Shown one piece after another: positions 18,060 through 33,507 of a stretch of DNA of 64,000 nucleotides. The position numbers were made by a program, and so were the translations under genes. The stretch comes from Geodermatophilus telluris (GTDB lineage Bacteria; Actinomycetota; Actinomycetes; Mycobacteriales; Geodermatophilaceae). Position 1 is the stretch's first letter; every line of letters starts with the position of its first letter. Location: the NCBI RefSeq assembly GCF_900102745.1, contig NZ_FMZF01000006.1:279559-343558 (forward strand), written 5' to 3'. The notes beneath the pieces were generated by a model. It was not told the DNA's origin and did no database searches. It worked only from the letters and a program-made list of their open reading frames with translations.

Positions 18060-18099
18060 CGGCCGCCGACGGTCGCGGTGCGCCCGTACCGTGCCGGGC

Positions 18100-19266
18100 G
18101 TGGGTGCAGCACCGGCAGGACGGCCGCCGACCCTGCGGTACGGCGTGACCGTGGCGGCAGCGACGCTGCTGGCCGCGGTGGTCCCCGGCGGCGAACCACC
18201 CGGACCGGACGGCGGTCGGCCGTGGGCCGTGCTCGTCGGGGCACTGCTCGGCGGGGCCGCACTCCTGCTGCTGCGGCGGCGGCCGGCCCTGGCGGTGCTG
18301 GGCTGCCTGGCGGTCTGCACCACCGTCCAGCTGCTGCTCGGCGCGCCCACCGGTCTGGTGGTGCTCGTGCTCGTGGCCCTGCTCCTGGTCGCGCTGCGGC
18401 GGCCGCTGCGCGTCGCGGTCGTGCTGCTGGCGGTCTGCTGCCTGGTCTACCTGGGCACCGACCTCGCCACGGGCGGCTGGGACAGCCGGGTGCTCGCCCC
18501 GCTGGCCCTCATGGCGGCCTGCACCGCCGCCGGTGTCGCCGTGGCCGGGCAGCAGGCCCTGGTGCGCGCGGCCACCGAGCGGGCCGCCGCGGCCGAGCGG
18601 ACGCGGCAGGACGAGGCCGACCGGCAGGTCGCCGACGAGCGGCTGCGGATCGCCCGCGAGCTGCACGACGTCGTCGCCCACCACGTCGCGGTGATGGGGG
18701 TCCAGGCCGGCGCGGCCGAGCAGCTGCTGGACACCGACCGCGACCAGGTGCGCCTCGCGCTCGGCCAGGTGCGTGCCTCGGGGCGGACGGCGCTGACCGA
18801 GCTCGGCGCCGTGGTCGGTCTGCTGCGCACCCGCTCCGAGGCCGCCCACGTCGACGACCTGCGACCGGCCCCGGCCGGGCTGGCTCGCCTCCCCGAGCTG
18901 CTGGAGTCGGTCCGGACCGCCGGACTGCGGCTGACGGTGGCGGAGCAGCCGGAGGACCCCGGCGCGACCGGGCTCGACGAGGTGGCCGACATCGCGGCCT
19001 ACCGCATCGTGCAGGAGTCGCTCACCAACGCGCTCAAGCACGGCACCGGAGAGGCCGTGCTCGCCGTCGCGGCCCGGTCGGGCTCGGTGGTGGTCACCGT
19101 GACCAACCCGGTCCAGCCGGAGACGCGGCCGGGCGCCGGACACGGCCTGCTCGGCATGCGCGAACGAGCCGACCTGATCGGTGCGGAGCTCCGCGCCGGA
19201 CCCGGCGGGAACGGGTGCTTCACCGTCCACCTCCGCATCCCGACCCGCCGGCCGGCCCGCGCATGA
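18100..19266 (+). CDS. NarL-type sensor histidine kinase
   Basis: About 388 residues from GTG 18100. This start is chosen because TACCGT (18087-18092) lies 7 bases upstream, matching the leaderless pattern seen at other genes here; an in-frame GTG at 18091 is the alternative. Four or five membrane helices (to about residue 150), a HisKA_3 phosphoacceptor RIARELHDVVAHHV, and a HATPase domain with N-box NALKHG and GHGLLGMRERA. No extracellular sensor domain is evident. It overlaps the response-regulator gene by ATGA, so the pair is a complete two-component system. Confidence 0.9.
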   Translation: MGAAPAGRPPTLRYGVTVAAATLLAAVVPGGEPPGPDGGRPWAVLVGALLGGAALLLLRRRPALAVLGCLAVCTTVQLLLGAPTGLVVLVLVALLLVALRRPLRVAVVLLAVCCLVYLGTDLATGGWDSRVLAPLALMAACTAAGVAVAGQQALVRAATERAAAAERTRQDEADRQVADERLRIARELHDVVAHHVAVMGVQAGAAEQLLDTDRDQVRLALGQVRASGRTALTELGAVVGLLRTRSEAAHVDDLRPAPAGLARLPELLESVRTAGLRLTVAEQPEDPGATGLDEVADIAAYRIVQESLTNALKHGTGEAVLAVAARSGSVVVTVTNPVQPETRPGAGHGLLGMRERADLIGAELRAGPGGNGCFTVHLRIPTRRPARA

Positions 19267-19982
19267 CCGCACCGATCCGGGTGCTCCTGGCCGACGACCA
19301 GCCGCTGATCCGGTCCGGGGTGGCGGCCGTGCTCGGCAGTGCACCGGACATCACCGTGGTCGGCCAGGCCGGCGACGGCAGCGAGGCCGTCCGACTGGCC
19401 CAGCTGCACCGCCCCGACGTCGTCCTCATGGACCTGCGGATGCCGGTCCTCGACGGCATCGCCGCCACCCGGGCGATCACCGCCCAGCCGGCACTGGCCG
19501 GCGTGCGGATCCTCGTCCTGACCACCTTCGACAACGACCGCAACGTGCTGCTCGCCCTGCGGGCGGGTGCCAGCGGGTTCGTCGGCAAGGGATCCGAGCC
19601 GGCCGACCTGATCCAGGCGGTCCGGGTGGTCGCGGCCGGGGACGCGCTGCTCTCCCCGCGGGCGACCCGGGCCCTGGTCGAGGACTACGTGCTCGGCGGC
19701 GCGGACCCCGGCCCCCCGTACGACGAGGCGGCAGACGCCCGCGCAGCCTTCGGGCAGCTGACCGAGCGGGAGCTGGAGCTGGTGAGCTGGGTCGCGCTCG
19801 GGTCGAGCAACGCCGAGATCGCCGCGGCCCTGGTGCTGTCGCCGCTGACGGTGAAGACGCACGTCAACCGGGCGATGGCGAAGGTCGGTGCCCGGGACCG
19901 GGCGCAACTGGTCGTGCTCGCCTACCGCACCGGCCTGGTCCACCCGCGGACGCGACGACCGGGACCGCCCGGCCCAGCGTGA
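19263..19982 (+). CDS. NarL/LuxR-type response regulator
   Basis: 239 residues, ATG 19263 inside the kinase stop. Receiver domain with LADDQ acidic pair, phosphoacceptor Asp in VVLMDLRMP, Thr in LVLTTFD and Lys in FVGKGSE; C-terminal LuxR helix-turn-helix (LTERELELVSWVALGSSNAEIAA). Partner of the histidine kinase just upstream. Targets unknown; the HupE/DUF3500 operon upstream on the same strand is a plausible one. Confidence 0.92.
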   Translation: MTAPIRVLLADDQPLIRSGVAAVLGSAPDITVVGQAGDGSEAVRLAQLHRPDVVLMDLRMPVLDGIAATRAITAQPALAGVRILVLTTFDNDRNVLLALRAGASGFVGKGSEPADLIQAVRVVAAGDALLSPRATRALVEDYVLGGADPGPPYDEAADARAAFGQLTERELELVSWVALGSSNAEIAAALVLSPLTVKTHVNRAMAKVGARDRAQLVVLAYRTGLVHPRTRRPGPPGPA

Positions 19983-20104
19983 GCACGCGGGGACCGGCCC
20001 CGCCGTTCCCGTCGCTGCCGCAGCCCGCTCCGGGATGCCTTGAAACGAGCCGGCGTGGCCCCGACCATGCGGTCGGAACGGGGACGTGGCGAGGGAGGCG
20101 CGCC

Positions 20105-21709
20105 GTGCTCAGGACCGCGTACTGGCCTGCGGAGCAGCTCGAGTCGGTCCGCGAGGAGACTGTCGGCGACCTGCTGCGCAGCGCTGCCGAGCGGGCCCCG
20201 GACGCGGTGGCGCTGGTCGAGGGAACGGCCGAGGGGGACCGCCGCCGGTGGTCCTACGCGCAGCTGCTGTCCGAGGCCGAGCAGACGGCCGGGGCCCTGC
20301 TCGGCCGCTTCTCCCCCGGCGAGCGGGTGGCGGTCTGGGCCGACAACCTGCCCGAGTGGATCGTCCTGGAGATGGGCGCGGCCCTGGCCGGGCTGACCCT
20401 CGTGACGGTGAACCCGGCGCTGCGCGCCGACGAGCTGCGGCACGTGCTGCGGCACTCCCGCGCCTCGGGCGTGTTCCTGCGGCGGGAGTACCGGGGCAAC
20501 CCGATGGCCGACACCCTCGCGGCCGTGCAGCCGGACCTGCCGGACCTGCGCGAGAGCGTCCTGTTCGAGGACTGGGACGCCTTCCGCGCGTCGGGGAGCC
20601 CCACCGAGGCGTTGCCGGCGGTGTCCGCGGCCGACCCGGCGCAGGTCCAGTACACCTCCGGCACGACCGGGCTGCCCAAGGGCGCGGTGCTCCACCACCG
20701 CGGCCTGACCAACAACGCGCGCTTGTCCTACGTCGACGTCCTCGGGATGGGCGAGGGCGAGGCGGTCGTCAACCCGATGCCGCTGTTCCACACCGCGGGC
20801 TGCGTGCTGGCCACCCTGTCCTCGATCGCCAGTCTCGGCACGCAGGTCCTCCCGCCGTCCTTCGACCCGGGCCTGCACCTGCGCCTCGTCGAGGAGGAGC
20901 GCAGCGTCGGGTTCGTCGGCGTCCCGACCATGCTCGTCGCGCTGCTGGCGCACCCCGACTTCTCCCCCGCCCGCACCGCGTCCGTGCGCTGGGCGCTGTC
21001 CGGCGGTGCGCCCGTCCCGCCGCCCCTGCAGCGCCGCGTCGAGGAGCTCCTCGGGGTGCCGATGCACATCGTCTACGCGCAGACCGAGGCCTCCCCCGGC
21101 ATCACGATGACCCGGGCTGACGACAGCCCGGACGACCGGGCGGAGACCGTGGGCCGTCCCCTGCCGGCGACCGAGGTGAGGATCGCCGACCCGGCGGACG
21201 GCACCACCGTCGTCCCCGGGGCGGTCGGTGAGCTGTGCACCCGCGGGTACCACGTCATGACCGGGTACCTCGACGCGCCCGAGCAGACCGCCGCCGCGAT
21301 CGACGCCGACGGCTGGCTGCACACCGGCGACCTCGCCACCATGGACGAGCGCGGCTACTGCCGGATCACCGGCCGGCTGAAGGACATGATCATCCGCGGG
21401 GGCGAGAACGTCTACCCGCGGGAGATCGAGGACGTGCTGTCCGCCCACCCCGGGGTGGCCGAGGTCGCCGTCGTCGGCGTCCCGGACCCGGTGTGGGGCG
21501 AGCAGGTCGCCGCCTTCGTCCGGCCGGCTCCCGGTGGCGCGCCCACGGAGGCCGAGCTGGAGGCCCACTGCCGGCGGCAGCTGGCCCCGCACAAGACGCC
21601 GCGGCACTGGCGGTTCGTCGAGGCGTTCCGGCTGACCGGGTCGGGGAAGGTCCAGAAGTACCGCCTGCGGGAGGAGTTCGCCGCGCTGCCGGACCACGAG
21701 CCGGCCTGA
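20105..21709 (+). CDS. Fatty-acid/acyl-CoA ligase (AMP-dependent synthetase)
   Basis: 534 residues from GTG 20105 with GGGAGG 7-8 bases upstream. Adenylation motifs in order: YTSGTTGLPKG (ATP loop), a YAQTEAS motif, DGWLHTGDLATMDERGY, GRLKDMIIRGGENVYPREIE, and the C-terminal catalytic Lys in GSGKVQKYRLRE. It activates a carboxylic acid to acyl-AMP and then the CoA thioester; length and motifs fit medium- or long-chain ligases. Stands alone; convergent with the permease gene 43 bases away. Confidence 0.9.
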   Translation: MLRTAYWPAEQLESVREETVGDLLRSAAERAPDAVALVEGTAEGDRRRWSYAQLLSEAEQTAGALLGRFSPGERVAVWADNLPEWIVLEMGAALAGLTLVTVNPALRADELRHVLRHSRASGVFLRREYRGNPMADTLAAVQPDLPDLRESVLFEDWDAFRASGSPTEALPAVSAADPAQVQYTSGTTGLPKGAVLHHRGLTNNARLSYVDVLGMGEGEAVVNPMPLFHTAGCVLATLSSIASLGTQVLPPSFDPGLHLRLVEEERSVGFVGVPTMLVALLAHPDFSPARTASVRWALSGGAPVPPPLQRRVEELLGVPMHIVYAQTEASPGITMTRADDSPDDRAETVGRPLPATEVRIADPADGTTVVPGAVGELCTRGYHVMTGYLDAPEQTAAAIDADGWLHTGDLATMDERGYCRITGRLKDMIIRGGENVYPREIEDVLSAHPGVAEVAVVGVPDPVWGEQVAAFVRPAPGGAPTEAELEAHCRRQLAPHKTPRHWRFVEAFRLTGSGKVQKYRLREEFAALPDHEPA

Positions 21710-21751
21710 CCGCCCGGCGACCGCCTCGAGGAGCGGGGATCCGGGGACCGG

Positions 21752-23275
21752 TCACGGCGCCTCGTTGGGGTAGCCCTCCTCGTCCATCCGCCGGATCACG
21801 CGGGGGTCGAGCCGCCCCTCGCCCACGGCCGCGTCCACCTCGGCGTCGACCACGGCGCCGTGCTCGTGCATCCACCGGTCGGCGCGGGTCTCCGCGGCGA
21901 CCCCGTCGTCGGTCAGGTGGGCGTCGCCGATCACCTTCCGCCGGACGGCGTAGGCCACGAGCACCAGCGCCCAGGCCAGGAGGCTGAGCAGCAGCTGGGA
22001 CCGGGTGCCCTCGCGGACGAACATCTGCACCAGGATCGCGACGATCGCGGCCGCCGTGAGCAGGGTCAGCACCGGGTAGAGCCACATCTTCACCCGCAGC
22101 CGCTCCGGCGGGATCGTCGGCCGCATCCGCAGCTGGGAGAGCGTGATCAGCAGGTAGACGAACAGGATGATCGCGCCGGAGGAGTTGAGCAGGAACAGGA
22201 AGACGGTGTCCGGCGAGACGTAGGCGGCGATCACGCAGAGGAACCCGATGACCGACGACGACAGGATCGCCCAGGCCGGCACCCCCCGCTTGCTGATCCG
22301 CAGCATCCGGCCCGGCGCCTCGTGCCGCGCGGCGAGCACGAACAGCATCCGCGAGGCGGTGTAGAGGCCGGAGTTCAGGCAGGACAGCACCGCGGTGAGC
22401 ACCACCGCGTTCATGATCTCGGCCGCGGCCGGGATGCCCATCTCCTCCATCGCGGCCACGTAGGGCGAGCCGCCCAGCCGCGTGGAGTTCCACGGCAGGA
22501 TCGTGGCCAGCAGGAAGATCGACCCCACGAAGAACACCGAGATGCGCAGGACGACGGAGTTCGTCGCCCTGACGATCCCCCGCTCCGGCTCGTCGGACTC
22601 CGCCGCGGCGATGGTGGCGATCTCCGCGCCGACCATCGAGAAGATCACGATGACGATGCCCGAGAACAGCGCGCCGACCCCGTTGGGGAACAGGCCGCCG
22701 TGCTCGGTGAGGTTGGAGAAGTCGAGGTCGCGGCCCGGCCACAGGCCCAGGACGAACAGCGCGCCCAGGCCGATGAAGACCATGATCGTCGCGACCTTGA
22801 CGCCGGCGAACCAGTACTCGAACTCGCCGTAGGAGGCCACCGAGAACAGGTTGGTCGCCGTCATGAGCACCATGAGCACGAGCGCCATCAGCCACAGCGG
22901 GACGTCGGGCAGCCAGCGCTGCAGGATCCCCGCCCCGGCCACGGCCTCGAAGCCGACCACGATGACCCAGAAGTACCAGTACAGCCAGCCCACGCTGAAG
23001 CCCGCCCAGCCGCCGAGGGACTGCCGGGCGTAGTCGGCGAAGGACCCCGTCGAGGGGTTGGCCACCGCCATCTCCCCCAGCATCCGCATGACCATGACGA
23101 TCAGGACGCCGGTGATCGCGTAGGTCAGGAACGCCGCGGGTCCGACCTCACCGATGATCGCGCCCGAGCCGACGAACAGGCCCGCGCCGATGACACCGCC
23201 GATCGCGATCATCGTGAGGTGGCGCTGCTTGAGTCCCTTGTGGAGGTCGCCGCTGTTGGCGGGGCCGTGTGCCAT
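21752..23275 (-). CDS. APC-family amino-acid permease (AAT/GABA-permease type)
   Basis: 507 residues from ATG 23275 with GAGGGA about 7 bases upstream. About 12 membrane helices; the first has IAIGGVIGAGLFVGSG, the signature of the amino acid:proton symporters AroP/AnsP/GabP. The C-terminal cytoplasmic tail is unusually long and acidic (about 60 residues after the last helix). Probably a proton-coupled importer of an amino acid or GABA; specificity cannot be read. Confidence 0.9.
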   Translation of the reverse strand: MAHGPANSGDLHKGLKQRHLTMIAIGGVIGAGLFVGSGAIIGEVGPAAFLTYAITGVLIVMVMRMLGEMAVANPSTGSFADYARQSLGGWAGFSVGWLYWYFWVIVVGFEAVAGAGILQRWLPDVPLWLMALVLMVLMTATNLFSVASYGEFEYWFAGVKVATIMVFIGLGALFVLGLWPGRDLDFSNLTEHGGLFPNGVGALFSGIVIVIFSMVGAEIATIAAAESDEPERGIVRATNSVVLRISVFFVGSIFLLATILPWNSTRLGGSPYVAAMEEMGIPAAAEIMNAVVLTAVLSCLNSGLYTASRMLFVLAARHEAPGRMLRISKRGVPAWAILSSSVIGFLCVIAAYVSPDTVFLFLLNSSGAIILFVYLLITLSQLRMRPTIPPERLRVKMWLYPVLTLLTAAAIVAILVQMFVREGTRSQLLLSLLAWALVLVAYAVRRKVIGDAHLTDDGVAAETRADRWMHEHGAVVDAEVDAAVGEGRLDPRVIRRMDEEGYPNEAP

Positions 23276-23372
23276 GTCCGCTCCCTCGTTGGACGACGAG
23301 TCGGTGGGCTCCGGGCGTGCGACCAAGGATCGGGCCGTCGCCGGGTCGACGCCAGTGGGAACGACTCCGCTC

Positions 23373-23400
23373 GGTCAGGTCCCGTGCACGGGACCTGACC
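23373..23400. terminator. 28-bp perfect palindrome, probable terminator
   Basis: Bases 23373-23386 are the exact reverse complement of 23387-23400 (centre GTGCAC). Folded, it makes a 12-bp stem with a TGCA loop. It lies 43 bases after the stop of the small minus-strand gene at 23443 and about 100 bases before the permease start, so it most likely ends the upstream transcript; an operator for the permease is the alternative. Confidence 0.6.
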
Positions 23401-23442
23401 GGCGCGCGAGGAGCGGGCCCGGCGGACCGGGGACCGCGGGGG

Positions 23443-23709
23443 TCAGACCGTCCAGGCCGTCGTCTCGTCGAGGGTGACCAGGGCGGCGGCCTGCGCCTCG
23501 GTGAGGTCGCCGGAGCGGCTCCACCGCCCGCGCAGGTGCCGGCGGGCGGCCTGCGGGGAGCTCAGCCGCGAGCTGTCCGGGGACCAGGAGTCGAGGAGCA
23601 CCAGGCTGCGCACCAGGCGCCGGGGCCAGCTCCGGTCCGCCGGCTGACGGTCCGGCCGGGGACCGGGGGTGCGGGGGCCGGGCTCGAGGTGGTCAGCTGC
23701 GCGGGGCAC
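23443..23709 (-). CDS. Small hypothetical protein, 88 residues
   Basis: GTG start at 23709 with AGGAGA about 8 bases upstream. Pro/Arg-rich N-terminus, then RLVRSLVLLDSWSPDSSRL and a charged helical end (GDLTEAQAAALVTLDE). I do not recognise a family. It follows the MFS/cNMP gene on the same strand with a 124-base gap, so it could be the last gene of that transcript. Confidence 0.55.
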   Translation of the reverse strand: MPRAADHLEPGPRTPGPRPDRQPADRSWPRRLVRSLVLLDSWSPDSSRLSSPQAARRHLRGRWSRSGDLTEAQAAALVTLDETTAWTV

Positions 23710-23833
23710 GGGTGCTCTCCTGCGGTCACGAGGGGTGGCGCGTGCGGGACGGGGCCGCGTCCGGCACGCCCCGTCCACGGTACGACCGGGCCGGCGAGCC
23801 GGGGCGCAGGCCGGGGCGTGACGGTCCGCACCG

Positions 23834-25522
23834 TCAGCCGGGGTCCGGGCGGCCGTCGGGGTCGGGGTGCGGCCGGACCCGGTCGCGGTGCCCGTCCTCG
23901 CTGAGGTAGCCGCGGACGAGCTGCTCCGCGGTCGCGGAGGTGGCCGAGTAGCTGGTGACCGCCGCGACGAATGCGGAACCGCTGAGGGCGGCGAGCCCGG
24001 TGTCCTCGAGGGCGCGCACGGTCGCCGTCCGCGGGACCGAGTGCAGCAGCGCGATCTCGCCGAAGGAGTCGCCGGGCCCGAGCCGGCGGACCTCGCGCCC
24101 GTCGACGACGACGGCCACGGCGCCGGACTCGACGACGTAGAAGTCCTCGCCGCGGTCCCCCGCCCGGAACACGTCGGTCCCCGCCGCGACACCGAGCCGG
24201 CGCAGCCGCAGCGCCAGGCCCTCGATGGCCGGGACGGGCAGCAGCCGGAGCATGCGGACCCGGCGCAGCAGCCGGATGCGGTCGCGGCGCGTGCCGATGT
24301 CGGCGTCGATCGCCCGCAGCGCCGCCCAGCGCGCGGCGACCGCCACCGGGAGGAGGCAGCCGGCGACGGCGAGGGCGCCGGCGCCCCCCAGCGCGGAGAC
24401 GAGCAGGGGGACGGTCAGCGAGCCGAGCGCCACCGTCAGGGAGAACACCGCCTCGGTCAGGGCGAGCACCCGCGCCAGCGTCCGGTCGGGGACCAGCCGC
24501 TGCAGCAGGGTGAAACCGGTGACGTCGACCAGGGCGTTGGCCGCGCCGACGACCAGGAAGGCGCCGACCGCCACGGTGCTGCCGGTGACCAGCCCGACGA
24601 CGACGAGCGGCACCCCCCACATCGCGATCCCGGCGCCGAACAGCGTGCCCAGCCGGGCGCTGCCCGCGGCCCCGATCGTCGCCGTCGCCGCCACCAGGCC
24701 CCCCACGCCGAACGCCGCCCAGAGCAGCCCGACGCCCGGGCGGCCGAGGTCCGTGAGGTCCACCGCGACCACCACGGCCAGCACCGTCAGGGCGCCGCGG
24801 ACCACGCACTGCACCCCGCCCAGGACGATCACCTCCGCGGCCCGGGGGCGCCGGCGCAGCTCGCGCAGCCCGTCGGCGACGTCGGCGAGGACCCCGGCCC
24901 GCCCGCCCGGCGGGTCGCCCACCGGGCGGGCCGACTCGTAGCGCAGCCCGGCGGCGAGCACCCCGGCGACGGCGGCGAGTCCGGCGACCGCGGCGAACGC
25001 GGCCGCCGTGCTGGCCCCCGCGATCAGCGCGGCCGCGAGCAGCGGGCCCACCAGCGCCGCCAGGCCGTCGAGGACGGCGCGGACCGCGTTGACCCCGGCC
25101 AGCTCCTCCGGCGTGCTGCACAGCGTGGGGAACAGCGCACCGAGCACCGGCCGGTACGCGGCGTGGCAGACCGTGGAGGCGGTCAGCAGCGCGTACACGG
25201 CCACCGGCTCGCCGGCCACCGCCGCCAGCCCCGCTCCCCCCGCGGTGAGCGCCCGGACCCCGCACGTGACCACCAGCAGCCGGCGCCGCGGGACCCGGTC
25301 GGCGAGCACGCCCAGCCAGGGGAGGGCGAGCGTCGCGGGCAGCACCCGCAGGAAGCCGACGACGCCGACGCCGATAGCGCCGTCGGTGTCGAACGCGTAG
25401 ACCGTCATCGCGGTGAGGAACAGGAACTCGCCCGTCCACGCCGCCACCGACGACGACTGGGCGAGCCGGAGGTTGCGGTTGCCGGTCACCGATGCCCACG
25501 CCTCGCGGTAGGCACCGGGCAC
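23834..25522 (-). CDS. MFS transporter fused to a C-terminal cyclic-nucleotide-binding domain
   Basis: 562 residues from GTG 25522. The start is supported by TAGCGT 7 bases upstream (leaderless pattern). Ten to twelve membrane helices (about 20-400) with the MFS motif GVLADRVPRR, then a CRP-type cNMP-binding domain at about 425-530: GTDVFRAGDRGEDFYVVESG, FGEIALLHSVPRTATVRA. The cNMP phosphate-contact Glu (FGE) and Arg498 (PRTATV) are kept, so nucleotide binding is plausible. Transport gated by cAMP/cGMP would follow (inference); transported substrate unknown. Divergent from a deacetylase that also carries a cNMP-binding domain. Confidence 0.9.
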   Translation of the reverse strand: MPGAYREAWASVTGNRNLRLAQSSSVAAWTGEFLFLTAMTVYAFDTDGAIGVGVVGFLRVLPATLALPWLGVLADRVPRRRLLVVTCGVRALTAGGAGLAAVAGEPVAVYALLTASTVCHAAYRPVLGALFPTLCSTPEELAGVNAVRAVLDGLAALVGPLLAAALIAGASTAAAFAAVAGLAAVAGVLAAGLRYESARPVGDPPGGRAGVLADVADGLRELRRRPRAAEVIVLGGVQCVVRGALTVLAVVVAVDLTDLGRPGVGLLWAAFGVGGLVAATATIGAAGSARLGTLFGAGIAMWGVPLVVVGLVTGSTVAVGAFLVVGAANALVDVTGFTLLQRLVPDRTLARVLALTEAVFSLTVALGSLTVPLLVSALGGAGALAVAGCLLPVAVAARWAALRAIDADIGTRRDRIRLLRRVRMLRLLPVPAIEGLALRLRRLGVAAGTDVFRAGDRGEDFYVVESGAVAVVVDGREVRRLGPGDSFGEIALLHSVPRTATVRALEDTGLAALSGSAFVAAVTSYSATSATAEQLVRGYLSEDGHRDRVRPHPDPDGRPDPG

Positions 25523-25529
25523 GGCGCGG

Positions 25530-25535
25530 ACGCTA
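25530..25535 (-). promoter_or_regulatory. -10 hexamer TAGCGT, leaderless start of the MFS/cNMP gene
   Basis: On the minus strand TAGCGT lies 7 bases before GTG 25522, so transcription would start at or next to the start codon. The whole divergent space to the deacetylase gene (25523-25705) is 183 bases and may hold shared control sites; no clear inverted repeat was seen. Confidence 0.5.
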
Positions 25536-25705
25536 GCAGCGCGGCGGCGTCCGGGGGGTGCTCCGCGCAGCCGTTCGCGGGCCGGGGACCGCACCGTGCA
25601 CCGGACCGGCCCGCCGCCGCCCGGGGCGGGTACGGTGCGCCCCCGACCGGGGCCTGTCCCGCAGGTCCCGGCCACGTCCACGAGCAGCGGAGTCGACGGT
25701 GACCG

Positions 25706-26860
25706 ATGGCTGACGCCCCCTCGGTCCGGCCGCCCGGTCGGCCGCGCCCACGCGTGCTCGGCGTCTTCGCCCACCCCGACGACGAGACCATCTGCGCCGG
25801 TGGCACGTTCGCCAAGTACGCCGGCGCCGGCGCCGACGTCCGCGTGGTCTCCCTGACCCGGGGCGGGGCCGGCCAGATCAGGGACGCCGCCGTGGCGACC
25901 CGCGCCACGCTGCGGGCGGTGCGCGAGGAGGAGCTGGCCGCGGCCGGCGAGGCGCTCGGGCTGACCGGGGTGACCTGCTTCGACCACCCGGACGGCGGCC
26001 TGGCCGACGTCGACGGGCAGGTCCTGGTGGACCTCGTGGCGGAGCTCCTCGACGACCTGCGGCCCGACGTGGTCGTCACGTTCGGCCCGGACGGGTTCTC
26101 CGGTCACCCGGACCACGTCGCCGTCGGTGCCGCCGTCACCGCGGCCTGCCGGCAGCTCCCGCCGTCGGCGTCGACCCGGCTGTTCCACTGCCACCAGCCG
26201 CGCAGCGGCATGCTGCTGCGCGACCGCCTGGCCAGCTGGGTCGTCGAGCTGACCACCCGCTTCACGGGCACGCGGGACTTCGTCCGTGCGCTGTCGGTCT
26301 TCTCGCGCGAGACGACGGCCCTCGGCTACGCCGCCGACTTCGTCACCGTCGAGTGGTACCCCGCCGGCTCCTACCTCATCGAGCAGGGTGACGCCGCGAC
26401 CTCGATCCACTTCCTCCTGTCCGGGGCCGTCGAGATCCGGCGGGAGGGCGCGGACGGCCGGGTCCGGGTGGTCGACCGGTCCGGCCCCGGGGAGTTCGTC
26501 GGCGAGCAGGGCATCGCCACCGGCCGGCCGCGCAACGCGCACGTGGTCGCCGTCGACGACGTCACGACCCTCACGTTCCTGGCCTCCGACCCCGCCGTCC
26601 TCGGCGGCCCCCCGGAGCAGGGCTTCCCGCCCACCCGGACGCTGCCCTCCGGGGACCGGGTCGACGCCCGGGTGGACACGTGCATCGACGTCACGGACTT
26701 CGTCGGCCACAAGATCCGGGCCACCGCCGCCCACCGCTCCCAGTACCCGATCGACCCGGCGATGTTCCCCGAGCCGATCCTGCGGGAGATGTTCGGCGCC
26801 GAGTACTTCACCCAGGTCCTGCCGGAACCGGAGCTGCGGACCTCCCTCCTCGACGACTGA
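25706..26860 (+). CDS. PIG-L/LmbE deacetylase with an inserted cyclic-nucleotide-binding domain
   Basis: 384 residues from ATG 25706. N-terminal PIG-L fold with zinc motif HPDDE (23-27), GGLADVDG, and HPDH (134-137). At about residue 210 the fold is interrupted by a cNMP-binding domain (about 211-295: PAGSYLIEQGDAATSIHFLLSG, GEFVGEQGIATGRPRNAHV, with Glu and Arg of the phosphate cassette kept). PIG-L sequence resumes at about 319 (DARVDTCIDVTDFVGHKI...HRSQ). PIG-L enzymes hydrolyse N-acetyl groups from sugars, for example in mycothiol synthesis. The insertion suggests the deacetylase is switched by a cyclic nucleotide (inference). Confidence 0.88.
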   Translation: MADAPSVRPPGRPRPRVLGVFAHPDDETICAGGTFAKYAGAGADVRVVSLTRGGAGQIRDAAVATRATLRAVREEELAAAGEALGLTGVTCFDHPDGGLADVDGQVLVDLVAELLDDLRPDVVVTFGPDGFSGHPDHVAVGAAVTAACRQLPPSASTRLFHCHQPRSGMLLRDRLASWVVELTTRFTGTRDFVRALSVFSRETTALGYAADFVTVEWYPAGSYLIEQGDAATSIHFLLSGAVEIRREGADGRVRVVDRSGPGEFVGEQGIATGRPRNAHVVAVDDVTTLTFLASDPAVLGGPPEQGFPPTRTLPSGDRVDARVDTCIDVTDFVGHKIRATAAHRSQYPIDPAMFPEPILREMFGAEYFTQVLPEPELRTSLLDD

Positions 26861-26923
26861 CCGGGACCGGTACGGGACGGGATCGGACGTCGCCGACGGC
26901 GCTGCCGGGGCCGTCCGCGCTGC

Positions 26924-26929
26924 TAGGGT
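26924..26929 (+). promoter_or_regulatory. -10 hexamer TAGGGT, leaderless start of the DUF2652 gene
   Basis: TAGGGT lies 5 bases before ATG 26935; a transcript initiated about 6-7 bases after the hexamer would begin at the start codon. No ribosome site precedes this gene. This is the clearest example of the leaderless pattern in the window. Confidence 0.6.
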
Positions 26930-26934
26930 CCGGC

Positions 26935-27651
26935 ATGGCGACCCGGCGTGCGCTGCTCCTCATCGCCGACATCGGCGGCTACACGCAGTACATGCAGTTC
27001 CACCGCAGCGTCCTGGGGCACGCGGAGGCGGCCACGCGGCGCATGCTCGACCGGGTCGTCGGTGCGGCGCGGGACTTCGACCTGATCGAGATCGAGGGCG
27101 ACGCGGCGTTCCTCTCCCGCGACGTCGACGGGCTGGACGGTCCCGCGACGCTGGCGGCCACCACCCGCGCCGTCGTCGCCATGCACCGCGCCTTCCACGT
27201 GGAGCGGCGGTTCGTCGAGCTCAACATGTGCCCGTGCGGCAGCTGCCGGCAGACCAGCGACCTGCGGCTGAAGTTCGTCGCGCACGTCGGGGAGGTGGCG
27301 ACCCAGACGATCCGGCGCCGGAAGAAGCTCGTCGGCGTGGACGTGATCTACGTCCACCGGCTGCTCAAGAACGGCGTCGACGTGCCGGAGTACCTGCTCG
27401 TCTCCGACGACCTCTTCCGCAGCGGGGGCCCGGCCGCCGCCGAGCTGGCGATGCGGGAGGTCCCCCAGGACCTCGAGGGCATCGGGCAGGTGCAGACGTT
27501 CTTCGTCGACGTCGCGGACATGGCCGCACCGCCGGTCCTGCCGGACCTCTCGTGGTCCCAGCGCCTCGGCAGCACGCTGGGCATGGTCGGCCGGGGCCTC
27601 CCGCACGTCCTCCCCCGCCGGCGTCCCCGGCAGCTCGCCACGGCCGGCTGA
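26935..27651 (+). CDS. DUF2652 class-III-nucleotidyl-cyclase-like protein
   Basis: 238 residues from ATG 26935, apparently leaderless. It has the class III cyclase core pattern: LLIADIGGYT with metal-binding Asp12, EIEGDAAF with the second Asp56, LKFVAHVGEV, and GVDVIYVHRLLKN in the position of the substrate-binding/Asn-Arg segment. A CPCGSC Cys cluster (99-104) in the middle could hold a metal. DUF2652 proteins are homologous to cyclases but, as far as I know, not proven active. Its position 74 bases after a gene with a cNMP-binding domain, and near a second one, suggests that it makes or senses the nucleotide. Confidence 0.8.
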   Translation: MATRRALLLIADIGGYTQYMQFHRSVLGHAEAATRRMLDRVVGAARDFDLIEIEGDAAFLSRDVDGLDGPATLAATTRAVVAMHRAFHVERRFVELNMCPCGSCRQTSDLRLKFVAHVGEVATQTIRRRKKLVGVDVIYVHRLLKNGVDVPEYLLVSDDLFRSGGPAAAELAMREVPQDLEGIGQVQTFFVDVADMAAPPVLPDLSWSQRLGSTLGMVGRGLPHVLPRRRPRQLATAG

Positions 27652-27690
27652 GCCCGCGGGCCGGCCGTCGGAGTCGGGCACGATCCGGCC

Positions 27691-27996
27691 GTGGAGACCG
27701 AGCAGCTGCTGCGGACGGCGGCCGACCGGCTGGAGGCGCTCGCCGCCCGGACCACCGCCGGCGACTGGCGGGCCGGCGGGCTGCTGGCGACCCGTCCCGA
27801 GGTCGTCGCGCACCTCCCCGGCGGCGGCACGGAGCACGTGGCCGAGGCGCGGGCCGGCACCGGTGCGTGGATCACCGCCCTCTCCCCCGCGCTGGCCGCG
27901 CCCCTCGCGGGCTGGTTGCGCGCGGCGGCCGCGCAGGGTGCGGCCGACCCGGCGGCCGCGGCGTTCGCCCGGGCGCTGCTCACGCGGCTGCCCTGA
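27691..27996 (+). CDS. Small hypothetical protein, 101 residues
   Basis: GTG 27691 with CACGAT 6 bases upstream, fitting a leaderless start. The helical N-terminus (EQLLRTAADRLEALAART) is followed by TAGDWRAGG, a GGGTEHVAEARA segment and an Ala-rich helix. I recall similar uncharacterised proteins in actinobacteria but cannot name a family. It follows the DUF2652 gene by 39 bases and is convergent with the zinc protein gene at 28020. Confidence 0.6.
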   Translation: METEQLLRTAADRLEALAARTTAGDWRAGGLLATRPEVVAHLPGGGTEHVAEARAGTGAWITALSPALAAPLAGWLRAAAAQGAADPAAAAFARALLTRLP

Positions 27997-28019
27997 CCGC
28001 GGCGCGCTCGACGGCCGTG

Positions 28020-28322
28020 TCAGGCCTCGAGCCGGCCGGTCTCGTCGCGGATCGTGGCACCGGCAGCGGCGAGGGCCGCCTCGTGCTCCCGTCCGTGGTG
28101 GGCGCAGAAGAGCAGGTCGCCGCCACCGGGCAGCACGGCGCGGACGAACGCCTGCGCACCGCAGGGGCCGCGGCCGGTCCGGCCGTTGCGGCCGCCCACC
28201 ACGGCGGGGGCGTCGCAGCGGTCGGCGAGCGTCAGCGGGGCGACGGCGGGCGCCGCGGACACGACGTCGCGGTCGTGGGTGGCGTGGTCGTGGCCGGCGC
28301 GGTCGAGGGTGGCGCGGGGCAC
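28020..28322 (-). CDS. DUF7455-like zinc-ribbon protein with an expanded Cys loop
   Basis: 100 residues from GTG 28322 with GGAGGAA upstream. The C-terminal half (CGAQAFVRAVLPGGGDLLFCAHHGREHE) is the small actinobacterial zinc protein that normally begins TLADRCDRCGAQA, where Cys-Asp-Arg-Cys forms the knuckle. Here 16 residues (APAVVGGRNGRTGRGP) replace the Arg between the two Cys (Cys36 and Cys54). The rest, including Cys73 and the His residues, is kept. The insertion is in frame. Function of the family is unknown. Confidence 0.75.
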   Translation of the reverse strand: MPRATLDRAGHDHATHDRDVVSAAPAVAPLTLADRCDAPAVVGGRNGRTGRGPCGAQAFVRAVLPGGGDLLFCAHHGREHEAALAAAGATIRDETGRLEA

Positions 28323-28541
28323 TCGGTTCCTCCGGTCGGTCTCGAGGGGTGCGGGTCACGGGTGGGCGGTGGCACCGGTCTCCCGTGCTCGTGCGGGGGG
28401 TGGCGGCTCCCGCTCGACGTCTCCACCGTGCCGCCGGTGTCCGCGGGCCGCCACGGGCGGCGCCGGTCGACCCGGACCCCGCCCGCCTTCCGGCCGTCGG
28501 CAACCCGCGGCCGGCGGCGGCACGGCCTCCGCCCGGGACGG

Positions 28542-29450
28542 TCAGGTCCCGCCGGTCAGGCCCCGCCGCAGCTCGTCGACCGCCTGCGCCAGGCCCACCC
28601 GCGGGGTCCAGCCCCAGCGCCGGGCGCGGTCGGTGCGCAGCCGGCCGGTCCACACCGGCTCGTCGGTCCACTCGGGCGCGACGCCCAGCGCGTCGGTCAC
28701 CGTGCCCAGGTAGTCCCGCCAGGTCGCGGGCTCCCCCGCGACGACGACCGGGGTCGTGCCGCCGGCCACCGGGCCGCGCTCCGGGTCGTCGGCGGTCGCG
28801 ACGGCGCCCGTGGCGACGTCCGCGACGAGGGCCGCCAGGTCGTCGACGTGCACCCAGGCGAAGGTCTGCGCCGGGTTGGCGCGGCGCTCCCCGCCACGGA
28901 CCTGCTGCGGTCGCAGCGTGTTCCAGACCGACGTGTCGCCGGCGCCCAGGACGGCCGGCGGGCGGACCAGCACGGTGGTGAGCCCGCCGACCTGCGCGAG
29001 CGCGGCGTCGGTGGCGTTCTTGGTGTCGGGGTAGTCGCCGCTGCCCTCGGGCAGGAGGACACCGTCCTCGGCGACGTCGCCGACGCCGGCCGAGCGGTCG
29101 TAGACGCCGGCCGTGGACAGGTGCACGAAGCGGGCGACGCCGGCGTCCCGGGCGGCCCGGGCCAGGACCGGCGTCCCCTCGACGCCCACCCGGTGCTGCA
29201 CCTCGCGCGACGAGCCCATCGGGTGCACCGTCGACACGACCGCGTCGGCCCCCTGGGTCACCGCGCGGGCGACGGAGGCGTCGGCGAAGTCGCCGACGTG
29301 CTCGGTGACCCCGTCGAGCGCGGGCGCGCTGCCGGCGCGGCGGACGACGGCGCGCACCCGGGCCGACCGGGCGACGAGCGCCCGGCAGACCGCGGCACCC
29401 ACCAGCCCGTTGGCACCGGTCACCACGACGACGGGAGAGGAGTCGGCCAC
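28542..29450 (-). CDS. NAD-dependent epimerase/dehydratase family protein
   Basis: 302 residues from GTG 29450, 7 bases after CAGGGT (leaderless pattern); an in-frame GTG nine bases upstream is possible. Extended-SDR layout: VVVVTGANGLVGAA at the N-terminus, HLSTAGVY with the catalytic Ser/Thr, and a DYPDTKN segment in which Tyr-x-x-x-Lys gives YPDTK. The C-terminal domain has the WVHVDDLAALV motif. Acts on a nucleotide-sugar or similar substrate; identity unknown. Its stop is separated by about 220 bases from the zinc protein start. Confidence 0.85.
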   Translation of the reverse strand: MADSSPVVVVTGANGLVGAAVCRALVARSARVRAVVRRAGSAPALDGVTEHVGDFADASVARAVTQGADAVVSTVHPMGSSREVQHRVGVEGTPVLARAARDAGVARFVHLSTAGVYDRSAGVGDVAEDGVLLPEGSGDYPDTKNATDAALAQVGGLTTVLVRPPAVLGAGDTSVWNTLRPQQVRGGERRANPAQTFAWVHVDDLAALVADVATGAVATADDPERGPVAGGTTPVVVAGEPATWRDYLGTVTDALGVAPEWTDEPVWTGRLRTDRARRWGWTPRVGLAQAVDELRRGLTGGT

Positions 29451-29518
29451 GTCGTCCACCCTGCCAGCGGCTCCCCGGCCGCGCTGCGCGGGCACCGCCC
29501 GCGGACGGGTGCCGGGGT

Positions 29519-30517
29519 CTACGGGCGCCCGGCGAGGACGGCGTCCGCCTCCCGGGCGAGGTCGTGCACGAGGTCGGCCGCGGGCCGGACGTCGTCGACC
29601 AGCGCGCAGGACTGGCCGCAGTAGAGGACCGCCTGGTCGAGGTCGCCCTCGAACCCCTCCATCGGCATGAAGATGCCGTAGCGCGGCAGCTCGACCGTCT
29701 GTCCCGCGACCGGCATCTTGCCGATGACGTCCCCCTCACCGGCCCGGGACCCGGTCGGCGGCGAGCCGGCCGCCTCCCACTCCCGCACGGCCGCGTTGCG
29801 CAGCACCCGGTGCGGGGCGTCAGGCCACCCGACGTCGAACACCCGCGTGTGGAACGTGTCCTCCGCGGTCGCGGCGACGATGCGGTCCTTGTACTCCCGG
29901 GCGGCCCGCGACTCCGCGCTGCAGAGGAAGCGGGTGCCCAGCGAGACCCCCTGGGCACCGAGGGCGAGGGCGGCGGCGACCTGCCGTCCGGTCGCGATGC
30001 CCCCGGCCGCGACGACCGGCAGCGGGGCCACCGCCTGCACCGTCGCGGGCAGCAGGACCGACAGCGCCGTGGTGCCCCGCACGTGACCGCCCGCCTCGAC
30101 ACCCTGGACCATCACGGCGTCCACGCCGGCGGCCGCGGCGCGCCGGGCCTCGTCGACCGAGCCGCACTGCACCAGGACCCTCGTCCCGACCCGGTGCGCC
30201 TCCTCGACCCAGGGGCCCGGGTCGCCCCAGAAGAGCACGAGGACGGGCACCCGTTCCTCCAGGCAGCAGGCCACCGCGTCGTCGTCCATGAGCGGGACGA
30301 TCAGGTTGACCCCGAAGGGCCGGTCGGTGAGCGCCCGCAGTTGACCGATCGCCTCCCGGATCGCCGGCGCGGGCAGCCCGCCCATGCCCAGCACCCCGAG
30401 GCCACCGGCACCGCAGACCGCGGCCGCCAGCTCCGGGCCGGCGAGGCCGCCGCCCATGCCGGCGTTCCAGATCGGCACCTCGATGCCGAGGGACGTGCAC
30501 AGCGGGGTGGTCAGCAT
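29519..30517 (-). CDS. NAD(P)H-dependent flavin oxidoreductase (nitronate monooxygenase family)
   Basis: 332 residues from ATG 30517 with GGAGGT about 7 bases upstream. FMN TIM-barrel with PIWNAGMGGGLAGPELAAAV, VMVQGVEAGGHVRG containing the catalytic His of nitronate monooxygenases, VVAAGGIATGRQVAAALALGAQGV for phosphate binding, and LGTRFL. The family oxidises alkyl nitronates or serves in fatty-acid and catabolic pathways. It is 68 bases upstream of the epimerase on the same strand. Confidence 0.88.
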   Translation of the reverse strand: MLTTPLCTSLGIEVPIWNAGMGGGLAGPELAAAVCGAGGLGVLGMGGLPAPAIREAIGQLRALTDRPFGVNLIVPLMDDDAVACCLEERVPVLVLFWGDPGPWVEEAHRVGTRVLVQCGSVDEARRAAAAGVDAVMVQGVEAGGHVRGTTALSVLLPATVQAVAPLPVVAAGGIATGRQVAAALALGAQGVSLGTRFLCSAESRAAREYKDRIVAATAEDTFHTRVFDVGWPDAPHRVLRNAAVREWEAAGSPPTGSRAGEGDVIGKMPVAGQTVELPRYGIFMPMEGFEGDLDQAVLYCGQSCALVDDVRPAADLVHDLAREADAVLAGRP

Positions 30518-30664
30518 CGCGCACCTCCGGGGTGGCTGGGCCGTCGGGACCGGCAGGAGGGCACCGTAGACCCGGCCCGGGCGCCGTGGCGCTCCACCGG
30601 CGCGGGGCGGTGCGCGCGGCCGGCTGCCCGGTGGACCCGACCGGCCCGGGGCAGGATCGCGGCC

Positions 30665-31645
30665 GTGGCCGGCATGCGGAGGCGTCGGGTGTCCGGCCGC
30701 GGGCGGCTGGGGACGGGGCTCACCCCGGCGGCCGGAGCCGCGGTCATGAGCACCGGCATCCTCTCGACGGCGACGGAGAGCGCCGGTCTGACGGTGCTGT
30801 CCTGGCTGCTGCTGGCGCTCGCCGTCGCCGGAGGCCTCGTGCTGGGCACGCACCTGGTCGTCCGGTGGGCGACGGACCGCGCGGGGTGGCTGGCCGACGC
30901 CGCGACACCGGCCTCGCTCACCGGCGTGGCCGCGACGACGGTGATCGGTGGCCGGGTCACCGCCGCCGGCTGGACCGGCCCGGCGTGGCTGCTGCTCGCC
31001 GTCGCCGCGCTCCTCTGGGTCGTCCTGCTCCCCCGCGTGCTGCGGCACCGGCAGGTGCCCACGGTCGGCGGGAGCTTCCTGGTCTGCGTGGCCACGCAGG
31101 GGCTGGCCGTCCTGTCCGCCACGCTCGCCGGGGCAGCCGGCAGCCGCCCGGCGCTGTCCGCCGGCGTGGCCGCCTTCCTCCTCGGGCTCGTGCTCTACGC
31201 GGGAGTGCTGGCCCGGTTCGACTGGCGCCAGCTGGCCGTCGGCGCCGGCGACCAGTGGGTGGCGGCCGGGGCGCTGGCCATCACGAGTCTCGCGGGCGCG
31301 CACCTGGTGCTCGCCGCCGACCGGCTGGGCACACCGGGCCGCGTCGTGGGGCCGCTGCGCGCGCTGGACCTGGCGGTGTGGGGCCTGACCCTCGGGGGCT
31401 ACGCCGTCCTGCTGGCCTGCGAACTGCGCTGGCCGCGCCGGCACTACGACGTCCGGCGCTGGGCCACGGTGTTCCCCCTGGGCATGACCGCCGCCGCCGG
31501 CTTCGCGGTCGCCGAGGCGGAGCGGCTGCCCGCCCTGGCCCGCGTCGGGCAGGTCCTGCTGTGGCCCGCCCTGGCGGCCTGGGTGCTCACCGCGGCCGGT
31601 GCGGCCGCCGCCCTCCTGCGCCGGGGTCCCGCGGCGCCGGGGTGA
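30665..31645 (+). CDS. TDT-family (TehA/SLAC1-like) membrane transporter
   Basis: 326 residues from GTG 30665, 7 bases after CAGGAT (30652-30657), a leaderless layout. About ten membrane helices; the N-terminal GLTPAAGAAVMSTGILS matches the opening of tellurite-resistance/C4-dicarboxylate carriers, and FPLGMTAAA near the end is typical of the family. Probably an anion or dicarboxylate channel; substrate unknown. Confidence 0.8.
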   Translation: MAGMRRRRVSGRGRLGTGLTPAAGAAVMSTGILSTATESAGLTVLSWLLLALAVAGGLVLGTHLVVRWATDRAGWLADAATPASLTGVAATTVIGGRVTAAGWTGPAWLLLAVAALLWVVLLPRVLRHRQVPTVGGSFLVCVATQGLAVLSATLAGAAGSRPALSAGVAAFLLGLVLYAGVLARFDWRQLAVGAGDQWVAAGALAITSLAGAHLVLAADRLGTPGRVVGPLRALDLAVWGLTLGGYAVLLACELRWPRRHYDVRRWATVFPLGMTAAAGFAVAEAERLPALARVGQVLLWPALAAWVLTAAGAAAALLRRGPAAPG

Positions 31646-31654
31646 CCGGCCCGG

Positions 31655-31858
31655 CTACCGCGAGCGCTGCTGGCCGCGGGCGACGAGCACCAGCACGACG
31701 AGCACCAGCGCCAGCGGCGCCCAGGCCGGCAGCGCGAAGGGGCCGAGCACCAGCTGCGCGACCACCAGGAGGAGCTGGAAGCCGAGCCAGAAGCCGACGA
31801 GCAGGACGAGCCCGAACAGCAGCGGCCGCTCGCCGCGCAGACGCCTGAGGTGCTCCAC
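31655..31858 (-). CDS. Small two-helix membrane protein, 67 residues
   Basis: GTG 31858 with GGAGG 6 bases upstream. Residues about 12-34 and 40-62 are hydrophobic helices with a short positively charged start (HLRRLRGERP) and end (RGQQRSR). No family recognised. It is downstream of a DUF4097-like protein and a response regulator on the same strand, the kind of partner seen in cell-envelope stress modules. Confidence 0.7.
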   Translation of the reverse strand: MEHLRRLRGERPLLFGLVLLVGFWLGFQLLLVVAQLVLGPFALPAWAPLALVLVVLVLVARGQQRSR

Positions 31859-31953
31859 GTGCCCTCCTCCGCGCGCCCGCTCGGGCGCGTCGGACGGTCA
31901 ACGACCGGGGCGCCGCCGGCTGTTCCCCCTCCCCCTCCTCCGGGGGAGGCGCC

Positions 31954-32628
31954 TCACCGGGAGCGGACGGTGACCTGCCCGACGCCGGTCGACGCGTCGA
32001 TCGACCGCCCGGCGGAGGCGTCGTGGTCCACCTGCACCTCCGTGGGACCCACCGTCGCGTCGGCGTCGACGCGGTAGCGCCCGTCGGGCACGACGACCTC
32101 GACGTTGCCGGCCGCACCGGCGTCGACGCGGACCTCCCCGGGGGCACCGGTGAAGGTCGCGGTCACCGTGCCGGCCCCGGCACCCACCTCGAACAGCGGG
32201 ACGTCGAGGTCGACGGCGGTCACGTCGCCCACGCCGGTGTGCACCCGCACCGGGACGCCGGCGGGCACGGTGACCTCCTCCTCGGTCCAGCAGTGCAGGG
32301 CGAACCCCGAGCACCCGGACGTGATCCGCAGGACGCCGTCGACGAGCTCGTGCCGCGGCGCCGCGGAGGAGGTGAACAGCCCGTGCGGGGTGGACCGCAC
32401 GCCCACGGCGTCCCCGTCCCCGCCGCGCAGCGTCACCGGGCCCGCACCGATGTCGACGACGACCTCGCGCACGCCGGGGACGACGGAGCTCGTGCTGTCG
32501 TGGCGGACCTGCGTGGCGGCGGCGAGGCCCCCGACGAGGGCGGTCGCGGCCACCGCGCCGACGACCCAGCGGGAGCGGCGGCGCCGGGCCACCGGGGAGG
32601 GGACGGGACGGATCCGCGTGCTGGTCAT
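31954..32628 (-). CDS. Membrane-anchored DUF4097-like beta-repeat protein
   Basis: 224 residues from ATG 32628, which has GACCGT about 8 bases upstream and no ribosome site. A single N-terminal membrane helix (WVVGAVAATALVGGLAAAT) is followed by short beta-rich repeats (VVVDIGAGPVTLRGG, VHTGVGDVTAVDL, VDAGAAGNVEVVV, IDASTGVGQVTVR) typical of the DUF4097 beta-solenoid found in LiaF/PspC-type envelope-stress proteins. Two Cys (GCSGFALHC) could form a disulfide outside the cell. Lies directly downstream of the LuxR-type response regulator. Confidence 0.75.
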   Translation of the reverse strand: MTSTRIRPVPSPVARRRRSRWVVGAVAATALVGGLAAATQVRHDSTSSVVPGVREVVVDIGAGPVTLRGGDGDAVGVRSTPHGLFTSSAAPRHELVDGVLRITSGCSGFALHCWTEEEVTVPAGVPVRVHTGVGDVTAVDLDVPLFEVGAGAGTVTATFTGAPGEVRVDAGAAGNVEVVVPDGRYRVDADATVGPTEVQVDHDASAGRSIDASTGVGQVTVRSR

Positions 32629-32720
32629 GCCCGGCACGGTCGTCCTCCGCGGCGGCGCCCGGCAGCGGGACAACCCGCGACCGGGGCAGGGTTGTCCCTG
32701 CTCCCGCCGAACCGGTCGGC

Positions 32721-33398
32721 TCAGTGCCGGAGGAAGGCCAGCACCGCGAGCACCCGCCGGTTGTCGTCGGCGGCCTGGTGCAGTCCCAGCTTGGTGAACA
32801 CCGACCGCACGTAGGCCTCGACCGTCTTCTGGCTGAGGAACAGCTGCTCCCCGATCGCCTGGTTCGAGCGCCCCTCCGCCATCACCGCGAGCACCTCGCG
32901 CTCCCGCTCGGAGAGGGCGTCGAGGGGGCTGTGCACCCGGCGGCGGCCGACCAGCGTCGCGACGACGCCCGGGTCGACCACCACCCCGCCGGCCGCCACG
33001 CGGCGCACCGCGTCGCGGAGCTCCGCGAGGTCGGCGACCCGCTCCTTGAGCAGGTACCCGGCGCCGGTGGTGCCGCCGTCGACGAGCTGCAGCGCGTAGC
33101 CCGTCTCGACGTGCGCCGACAGCACCAGCACGCCCGTGCCCGGGTGCCGCTCGCGCAGCGCCCGCGCGGCCTCGAGCCCCTCGGTGGTGTGCGTGGGCGG
33201 CATGCGGATGTCGACCACCGCCACGTCCGGCGGGTCGGCGGCCACGCTGGCCAGCAGCGCCCCCGCGTCGCCCACCGCGGCCGTGACGGCGAACCCCGCC
33301 TCGGTGAGCAGCCGGGTCAGGCCCTCCCGGAACAGCACCGCGTCGTCGGCGACCGCCACCCGCAGGGCGCGCGCCTCGGCCGTCGGGATGGGCGACAC
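32721..33398 (-). CDS. NarL/LuxR-type response regulator
   Basis: 225 residues from GTG 33398. The start is supported by a TTGACA / 17-base spacer / GACGTT promoter directly upstream (leaderless). Receiver with VADDAVLFREGL, phosphoacceptor Asp in VVDIRMP, Ser in VLVLSAHVE, Lys in YLLKERVADL; C-terminal LuxR helix-turn-helix (LSEREREVLAVMAEGRSNQAIGE). It has no kinase in its own operon and is divergent, by 109 bases, from a receiver-only protein and a histidine kinase. Confidence 0.92.
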   Translation of the reverse strand: MSPIPTAEARALRVAVADDAVLFREGLTRLLTEAGFAVTAAVGDAGALLASVAADPPDVAVVDIRMPPTHTTEGLEAARALRERHPGTGVLVLSAHVETGYALQLVDGGTTGAGYLLKERVADLAELRDAVRRVAAGGVVVDPGVVATLVGRRRVHSPLDALSEREREVLAVMAEGRSNQAIGEQLFLSQKTVEAYVRSVFTKLGLHQAADDNRRVLAVLAFLRH

Positions 33399-33404
33399 GC
33401 GGAC

Positions 33405-33433
33405 AACGTCGGGGCGCGGGTCCGCCCTGTCAA
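33405..33433 (-). promoter_or_regulatory. Promoter TTGACA-17-GACGTT for the LuxR-type response regulator
   Basis: On the minus strand TTGACA occupies 33433-33428 and GACGTT 33410-33405, with exactly 17 bases between them; GTG 33398 begins 6 bases further on. A near-consensus housekeeping-sigma promoter with a leaderless transcript. Confidence 0.65.
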
Positions 33434-33507
33434 GGACCGTCCGCCACGACCTGCGGTACCGGGTTGACCCTGTACCCCCGGGGACGGCGCGTCGCGACCA
33501 TGGGGAG

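Follow-up and report, generated by a model that had tools for sequence, protein, structure and literature searches.

A DUF2652 cyclase-like gene adjoining exporter and deacetylase genes with cyclic-nucleotide-binding domains in Geodermatophilus telluris and other actinobacteria

The window, that is, the whole stretch of 64,000 nucleotides analysed here, is from Geodermatophilus telluris (contig NZ_FMZF01000006.1, positions 279,559 to 343,558). An earlier note, made from the letters alone, had placed three genes side by side at 23834–27651, specifying an MFS exporter with a cyclic-nucleotide-binding (CNB) domain (MFS-CNB, minus strand), a PIG-L deacetylase with a CNB domain (PIG-L-CNB, plus strand) and a DUF2652 protein (plus strand). 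Open reading frames and Pfam domains confirm all three, and the features are as follows.

23834..25522, minus strand: MFS exporter with a C-terminal CNB domain, 562 amino acids (MFS residues 25–367, CNB residues 446–522)
23957..24187, minus strand: CNB domain of the MFS protein, phosphate cassette GEIALLHSVPRTA
25523..25705, no strand: divergent intergenic region of 183 bases, from the ORF coordinates, presumed to hold the promoters
25706..26860, plus strand: PIG-L (LmbE/MshB-like) deacetylase with an inserted CNB domain, 384 amino acids
26267..26593, plus strand: CNB insert of the PIG-L protein, approximately residues 188–296, cassette GEQGIATGRPRNA
26935..27651, plus strand: DUF2652 protein, 238 amino acids, class III cyclase fold at residues 1–198, starting 74 bases after the PIG-L gene

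The minus-strand protein possesses MFS_1 (3.8e-25) and cNMP_binding (1e-19) domains and the first plus-strand protein PIG-L (6.4e-33) and cNMP_binding (3.2e-19) domains, all above the curated cut-offs; the two CNB domains score 70.7 and 69.1 bits against PF00027 (cut-off 27.5). Both retain the Glu and Arg of the phosphate cassette, as had been noted earlier. The nearest NCBIfam model to the MFS protein is the TIGR00900 H+ antiporter (2A0121), at 96 bits against a cut-off of 319.6. The second protein belongs to the PIG-L/LmbE family by its Pfam score, its AHPDDE and GHPDH motifs and its MshB fold; its nearest models are those of BshB2 and MshB and its nearest structure is that of MshB, but it falls short of the NCBIfam equivalog cut-offs (89.3 of 224.35 bits for MshB, 101.8 of 195.25 for BshB2). 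The earlier description of CNB domains fused to both proteins holds as far as their presence goes, but that of the PIG-L protein lies within the PIG-L fold, between its catalytic and C-terminal parts, and is not appended to it. If it acts as a switch, it is the only one that we know of placed inside a PIG-L enzyme. The third protein contains DUF2652 (PF10851; 2.2e-38, 131.3 bits against a cut-off of 22.1).

Ten neighbouring frames (window 16641–36266) were scanned and specify transport, metabolism, two-component or unknown functions. Downstream are a 101 amino acid frame without a Pfam match (27691–27996) and an SDR/epimerase (28542–29495) which is near the unit in several other Geodermatophilaceae. 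The 4.8 Mb genome holds only five CNB domains and a single class III cyclase domain of canonical type, and linkage of the set recurs in other genera; the gene set in the window is therefore not due to chance. Two further CNB domains lie close together elsewhere in this genome (G000 C7, 198533–201227).

The predicted model of the DUF2652 protein shows a clear class III cyclase fold. A profile of the family gave no match to PDB sequences at E values up to 1, although the fold search did. The two metal-binding residues which the earlier note had picked out, Asp12 and Asp56, are where it put them and are invariant in an alignment of 56 sequences, as are Glu52, His141 and Arg142; Lys131 is conserved in at least 90%. 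In the same alignment the transition-state Asn is absent, its position being held by an invariant Ile138, and the canonical base-specificity pair (Lys/Asp or Glu/Cys) is replaced by Glu52/Lys131, so that activity may be lost or changed. The invariant Arg142 we take, from motif spacing, to be the transition-state Arg. The same assignment is made in PMC4886424, according to which several established class III cyclases lack the transition-state Asn. A Cys motif, C99-x-C101-xx-C104 (CxCxxC), is conserved and could be a zinc or redox site. In one clade of PycC a Cys/His zinc site is required for activity (PMC11224242); the DUF2652 motif is at a different place in the chain. The window protein has 3074 relatives at E values up to 1e-5, and a search for DUF2652 on plasmids gave no match.

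DUF2652 proteins were predicted in 2016, from their residues, to be nucleotide cyclase-like (Ramakrishnan et al., PMC4886424), with 20 neighbour associations given for 12 of them, and Mycobacterium tuberculosis Rv2561 was reported to have CNB neighbours. The window protein shares the Pfam family and class III fold of these proteins, and its residue class 'D,D; E,K; H,R' is that listed for Modestobacter marinus I4EWW4. Table 2 of that paper gives no MFS-CNB or PIG-L-CNB partner of DUF2652, and the portion of its text available to us describes no subfamily-wide linkage. DUF2652 is an orphan family predicted to be cyclase-like, and our literature search found no report of a test.

Loci were gathered from three sets of genomes: (a) Geodermatophilaceae (112 genomes), (b) the order of Segeticoccus G523 (396) and (c) the order of Kribbella G525 (293). 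The window subfamily of DUF2652 was separated from the others by score to a purpose-built profile (above 350 against below 211 bits, broken copies aside); Glu52 alone does not define it, since L169, on the other side of the split, also has Glu there. The earlier note had staked its reading on the genes being neighbours in related genomes. They are: a CNB domain, detected with a profile built from the loci themselves, lies within 1.5 kb of DUF2652 in 45 of 45 window-subfamily loci, the farthest at 1,444 bases, and MFS-CNB is present in 42 of them, in all three actinobacterial groups. Among the Geodermatophilaceae DUF2652 occurs in 21 of the 112 genomes, 20 of these (not G068) having the window subfamily; a CNB gene is beside it in all 20 and MFS-CNB in 18, while in G042 and G055 a solo CNB protein and PIG-L-CNB adjoin DUF2652 and MFS-CNB is elsewhere in the genome. 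In set (b) DUF2652 was found in 8 of 396 genomes, and the seven loci fetched have a CNB gene in 7/7 and MFS-CNB in 6/7. In set (c) it matched in 20 of 293 genomes; MFS-CNB is present in all 18 examined, L198 being counted among these with a broken DUF2652. Rows without a fetched locus are G628 (below the cut-off) and G1185 and G1100 (fragments). No intact DUF2652 of the window subfamily was seen without a CNB gene among the loci examined.

In the other DUF2652 subfamilies no CNB domain was found within 5 kb at any of 16 loci (L146, and 15 taken from 14 genomes in a phylum sample of 396), three of which are on contigs of just 4.6–7 kb; the CNB of L160 is 7.8 kb away and a marginal match in L163 (E 0.04) was left uncounted. 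Four mycobacterial loci, of the AKLEGD type, are among these controls together with twelve others; the fragment G311 was left out. A general rule tying DUF2652 to CNB genes was dropped for this reason.

Co-occurrence was examined in the 112 Geodermatophilaceae genomes. MFS-CNB (E up to 1e-40) and DUF2652 were each found in 21, of which 20 are common to both, and full-length PIG-L-CNB in 11, all within those 20; the hypergeometric values, uncorrected for kinship, are 6.7e-20 for DUF2652 with MFS-CNB and 6.7e-10 for PIG-L-CNB. In G050 and G056 PIG-L-CNB is on a different contig from the DUF2652–MFS pair. A twelfth genome, G073, was excluded from the count of 11; it lacks DUF2652 and carries a divergent gene resembling PIG-L-CNB, which is split in two and has only part of the CNB (L042, 7993–8711). 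Of the three-gene unit proposed earlier, the cyclase-like and CNB proteins are conserved, but PIG-L-CNB is present in just 11 of the 20 Geodermatophilaceae carriers: DUF2652 and MFS-CNB are the core, and PIG-L-CNB is optional.

Gene order and strand fall into 11 arrangements among 48 loci with an open DUF2652. The DUF2652 tree requires at least 16 changes of arrangement and at least 11 changes in PIG-L presence; these are minima from a tree built by a 'quick' method, with 18 of 45 inner branches below 80 and arrangement codes assigned by hand. PIG-L counts are biased in loci fetched with the PIG-L protein as query, which are among the 80 matches listed. Since order and strand vary while the neighbours stay near, their proximity looks selected, and its persistence despite shuffling is hard to explain by shared ancestry alone.

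The MFS cassettes retain Glu and Arg in 50 of 50 hits, which include two loci counted twice and one lone fragment, with R-T-A in 49 and R-S-A in L189; the solo CNB cassettes read R-T-A in 10/10 hits. Most actinobacterial PIG-L-CNB proteins have P-R-N-A. In some PIG-L CNB domains a cassette residue is lost: the Glu is replaced by Gln in L187 and L190, both beside DUF2652, and by Asp in L062, and the Arg is missing in L055, L068, L071 and L073. Thr in the CNB cassette occurs in cAMP-binding CRPs as well and is not diagnostic, so an attempt to deduce the nucleotide base from it was dropped. MFS-CNB proteins of the main type are 74–91% identical within the Geodermatophilaceae, a second type only 42–45%. 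The second subtype is found in G042 and G055 away from DUF2652 (L208, L209), near a gene which by eye we take to be glutamine-synthetase-like.

The three-gene make-up given in the earlier note proved incomplete, as there are two more recurrent partners, one a solo CNB protein and the other a PLP enzyme resembling cysteine synthase; both adjoin PIG-L-CNB in L043, L044, L048, L049, L055, L056, L059 and L070. L143 (G043, 9541–9849) retains remnants of both genes between DUF2652 and MFS-CNB, that of the cysteine-synthase-like gene being from its C-terminal end; they represent decay of the accessory module. The CNB nearest to DUF2652 in this locus is the solo CNB remnant, followed by the intact MFS-CNB. 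Broken genes were also seen in L198 (9174–9706; DUF2652 in pieces beside an intact MFS-CNB), L055 (5349–6028; DUF2652 split) and L144 (9245–10926; MFS-CNB split near the CNB). A class III cyclase of canonical type adjoins MFS-CNB in L043 of Kribbella (L197 is the same locus), a distant MFS-CNB homolog in L204, and PIG-L-CNB in L061, from a Dehalococcoidia MAG; none was found in the remaining PIG-L-CNB or DUF2652 unit loci searched. These anecdotal cases fit a DUF2652 protein that takes a cyclase slot.

The receptors also occur on their own. MFS-CNB homologs of at least 66% identity were found in ten genomes of set (b), four of which (G883, G889, G694, G919) have no DUF2652, and neither a cyclase nor DUF2652 was found beside MFS-CNB in these four; G565 has a 52% homolog and no DUF2652. 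DUF2652 is missing from 13 of the 18 PIG-L-CNB genomes checked, Chloroflexi included, most of them picked since no DUF2652 was adjacent, and the DUF2652 of two mycobacteria with PIG-L-CNB is of the other type. A canonical PF00211 cyclase is present in 8/8 genomes checked as well. The term 'self-contained', used of the unit earlier, is too strong, because MFS-CNB and the Chloroflexi PIG-L-CNB exist without DUF2652. From these cases and the cassette losses it follows that the receptors can serve other ligand sources or lose binding.

That the same gene set is kept in distant relatives despite changing gene order points to a putative small dedicated signalling system. On the basis of the genes and domains described above, of the predicted fold and its conserved residues, and of linkage and co-occurrence, we think it probable, with moderate confidence, that this is a post-translational second-messenger unit in which a cyclic nucleotide made by DUF2652 switches the linked CNB proteins; catalysis by DUF2652, its ligand and direct allosteric switching are what we infer. 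The DUF2652 protein would be a divergent, soluble nucleotide cyclase of class III type, producing a cyclic mononucleotide. This would bind the C-terminal CNB domain of the exporter and the CNB domain inserted in the deacetylase, and switch both directly, without transcription. DUF2652 and MFS-CNB would form the core, with PIG-L-CNB, the solo CNB protein and the cysteine-synthase-like enzyme as optional modules. The linkage gives one DUF2652 subfamily concrete candidate receptors and, if the reading is true, a transporter and a hydrolase are gated directly by a cyclic nucleotide. A bolder form, possible though on the unlikely side, is an orthogonal cassette: the Glu/Lys subfamily would make a private, non-canonical cyclic nucleotide (not cAMP), read by the linked CNB proteins and controlling export and amide hydrolysis at the post-translational level, and interchangeable modules would have been recruited repeatedly across actinobacteria.

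Three other explanations were weighed against the second-messenger unit. DUF2652 may be a pseudo-cyclase which makes no nucleotide, binding instead an NTP or a metal/redox signal and regulating the CNB proteins or buffering their ligand, with cAMP supplied by ordinary cyclases. The Ile at the transition-state Asn position, the unusual Glu/Lys pair and the conserved CxCxxC agree with this, as do the receptors found without DUF2652 and the PF00211 cyclase in all eight genomes checked. We nevertheless judge it unlikely: a site used for binding alone would seem not to require the invariant metal Asp pair together with Glu52, His141 and Arg142, and Asn-less class III cyclases are established (PMC4886424). 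Very unlikely, in our opinion, is a shared pathway, for example thiol or conjugate metabolism with export, in which the CNB domains read a global cAMP pool and DUF2652 has nothing to do with cyclic nucleotides. The likeness of the PIG-L protein to MshB, in model and structure, and to the BshB2 model, the cysteine-synthase-like partner and the solitary receptors would suit it, but the CNB domain is the common factor among otherwise unrelated partners, DUF2652 has a cyclase fold, and the DUF2652–MFS pair persists where PIG-L is absent.

A Pycsar-like phage defence, with the cyclase-like protein as infection sensor and its nucleotide as the signal that activates CNB effectors to arrest the cell, appears highly improbable. 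Pycsar, a pyrimidine cyclase with a CNB effector (PMC11224242), has the same two-part logic, and in the unit too CNB-fused proteins lie beside a class III-type cyclase; the unit is patchy and shuffled, and its CNB domains match PADLOC Pycsar effector models (best E values 7e-12 for MFS, 4e-9 for PIG-L and 2e-14 for solo CNB), as any CNB might. Against this, DUF2652 matches no PADLOC model, PycC included, at E values of 1 or below. Its partners, an exporter and a deacetylase of metabolic type, differ from TIR and small-pore effectors; there is no TIR domain in the Pfam results, and the PADLOC matches are confined to the CNB part. The ten frames around the unit (window 16641–36266) are of transport, metabolism, two-component or unknown type, and the main MFS-CNB type is 74–91% identical within the family, though the second type is only 42–45%. 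No defence role is indicated for the unit. It is of the cyclase plus CNB effector type, and is classed neither as Pycsar nor as a proven cyclase.

In mycobacterial Pat (Rv0998; PMC8556138), whose structure 4ava was among the Foldseek matches, a CNB domain directly controls an acetyltransferase, and a CNB–enzyme fusion is likewise seen here; in Pat the CNB precedes a GNAT domain, whereas here it is inserted in a PIG-L hydrolase and accompanied by a linked cyclase-like gene. MFS-CNBD fusions, the same type as ours, were named in a 2023 review (PMC10710835), which in the portion available gives no partner cyclase or function. Family 2B encapsulin shells also carry a cNMP-binding domain inserted in another fold, and some of their operons carry a cysteine desulfurase cargo (PMC8346489), but that protein is a shell protein and the CNB domain of the unit shows only weak profile similarity. 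The earlier statement that no such system had been described thus stands in part. DUF2652 as cyclase-like (PMC4886424) and MFS-CNB fusions (PMC10710835) are already in print; the DUF2652/MFS-CNB pairing and PIG-L-CNB (also sought as LmbE with cyclic nucleotide) were not found in literature searches which lay outside most subscription journals.

Some further neighbours were observed. A class V aminotransferase (SufS-like or pyridoxamine-pyruvate type) adjoins PIG-L-CNB in L067 (11180–12721), L074 (817–2709), L062 (11272–12792) and L069 (2642–3871), sharing one open frame with it in L067; three class V sequences were used as queries, and just one of them, from L074, matched a further PIG-L-CNB locus (L067). 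A sulphur or thiol theme (MshB-like, cysteine-synthase-like, and SufS-like neighbours in L062, L067 and L074) was considered too weak to claim. Distant MFS-CNB homologs lie beside a 429 amino acid frame matching CNB only in L211 (7217–10080) and beside a Crp-type regulator in L205 (7832–10214). Another cyclase/CNB cluster is that of L203 (3–7005), in which an MFS-CNB-patatin fusion, with an MFS-CNB homolog about 2 kb away, adjoins a class III cyclase-AAA-TPR protein.
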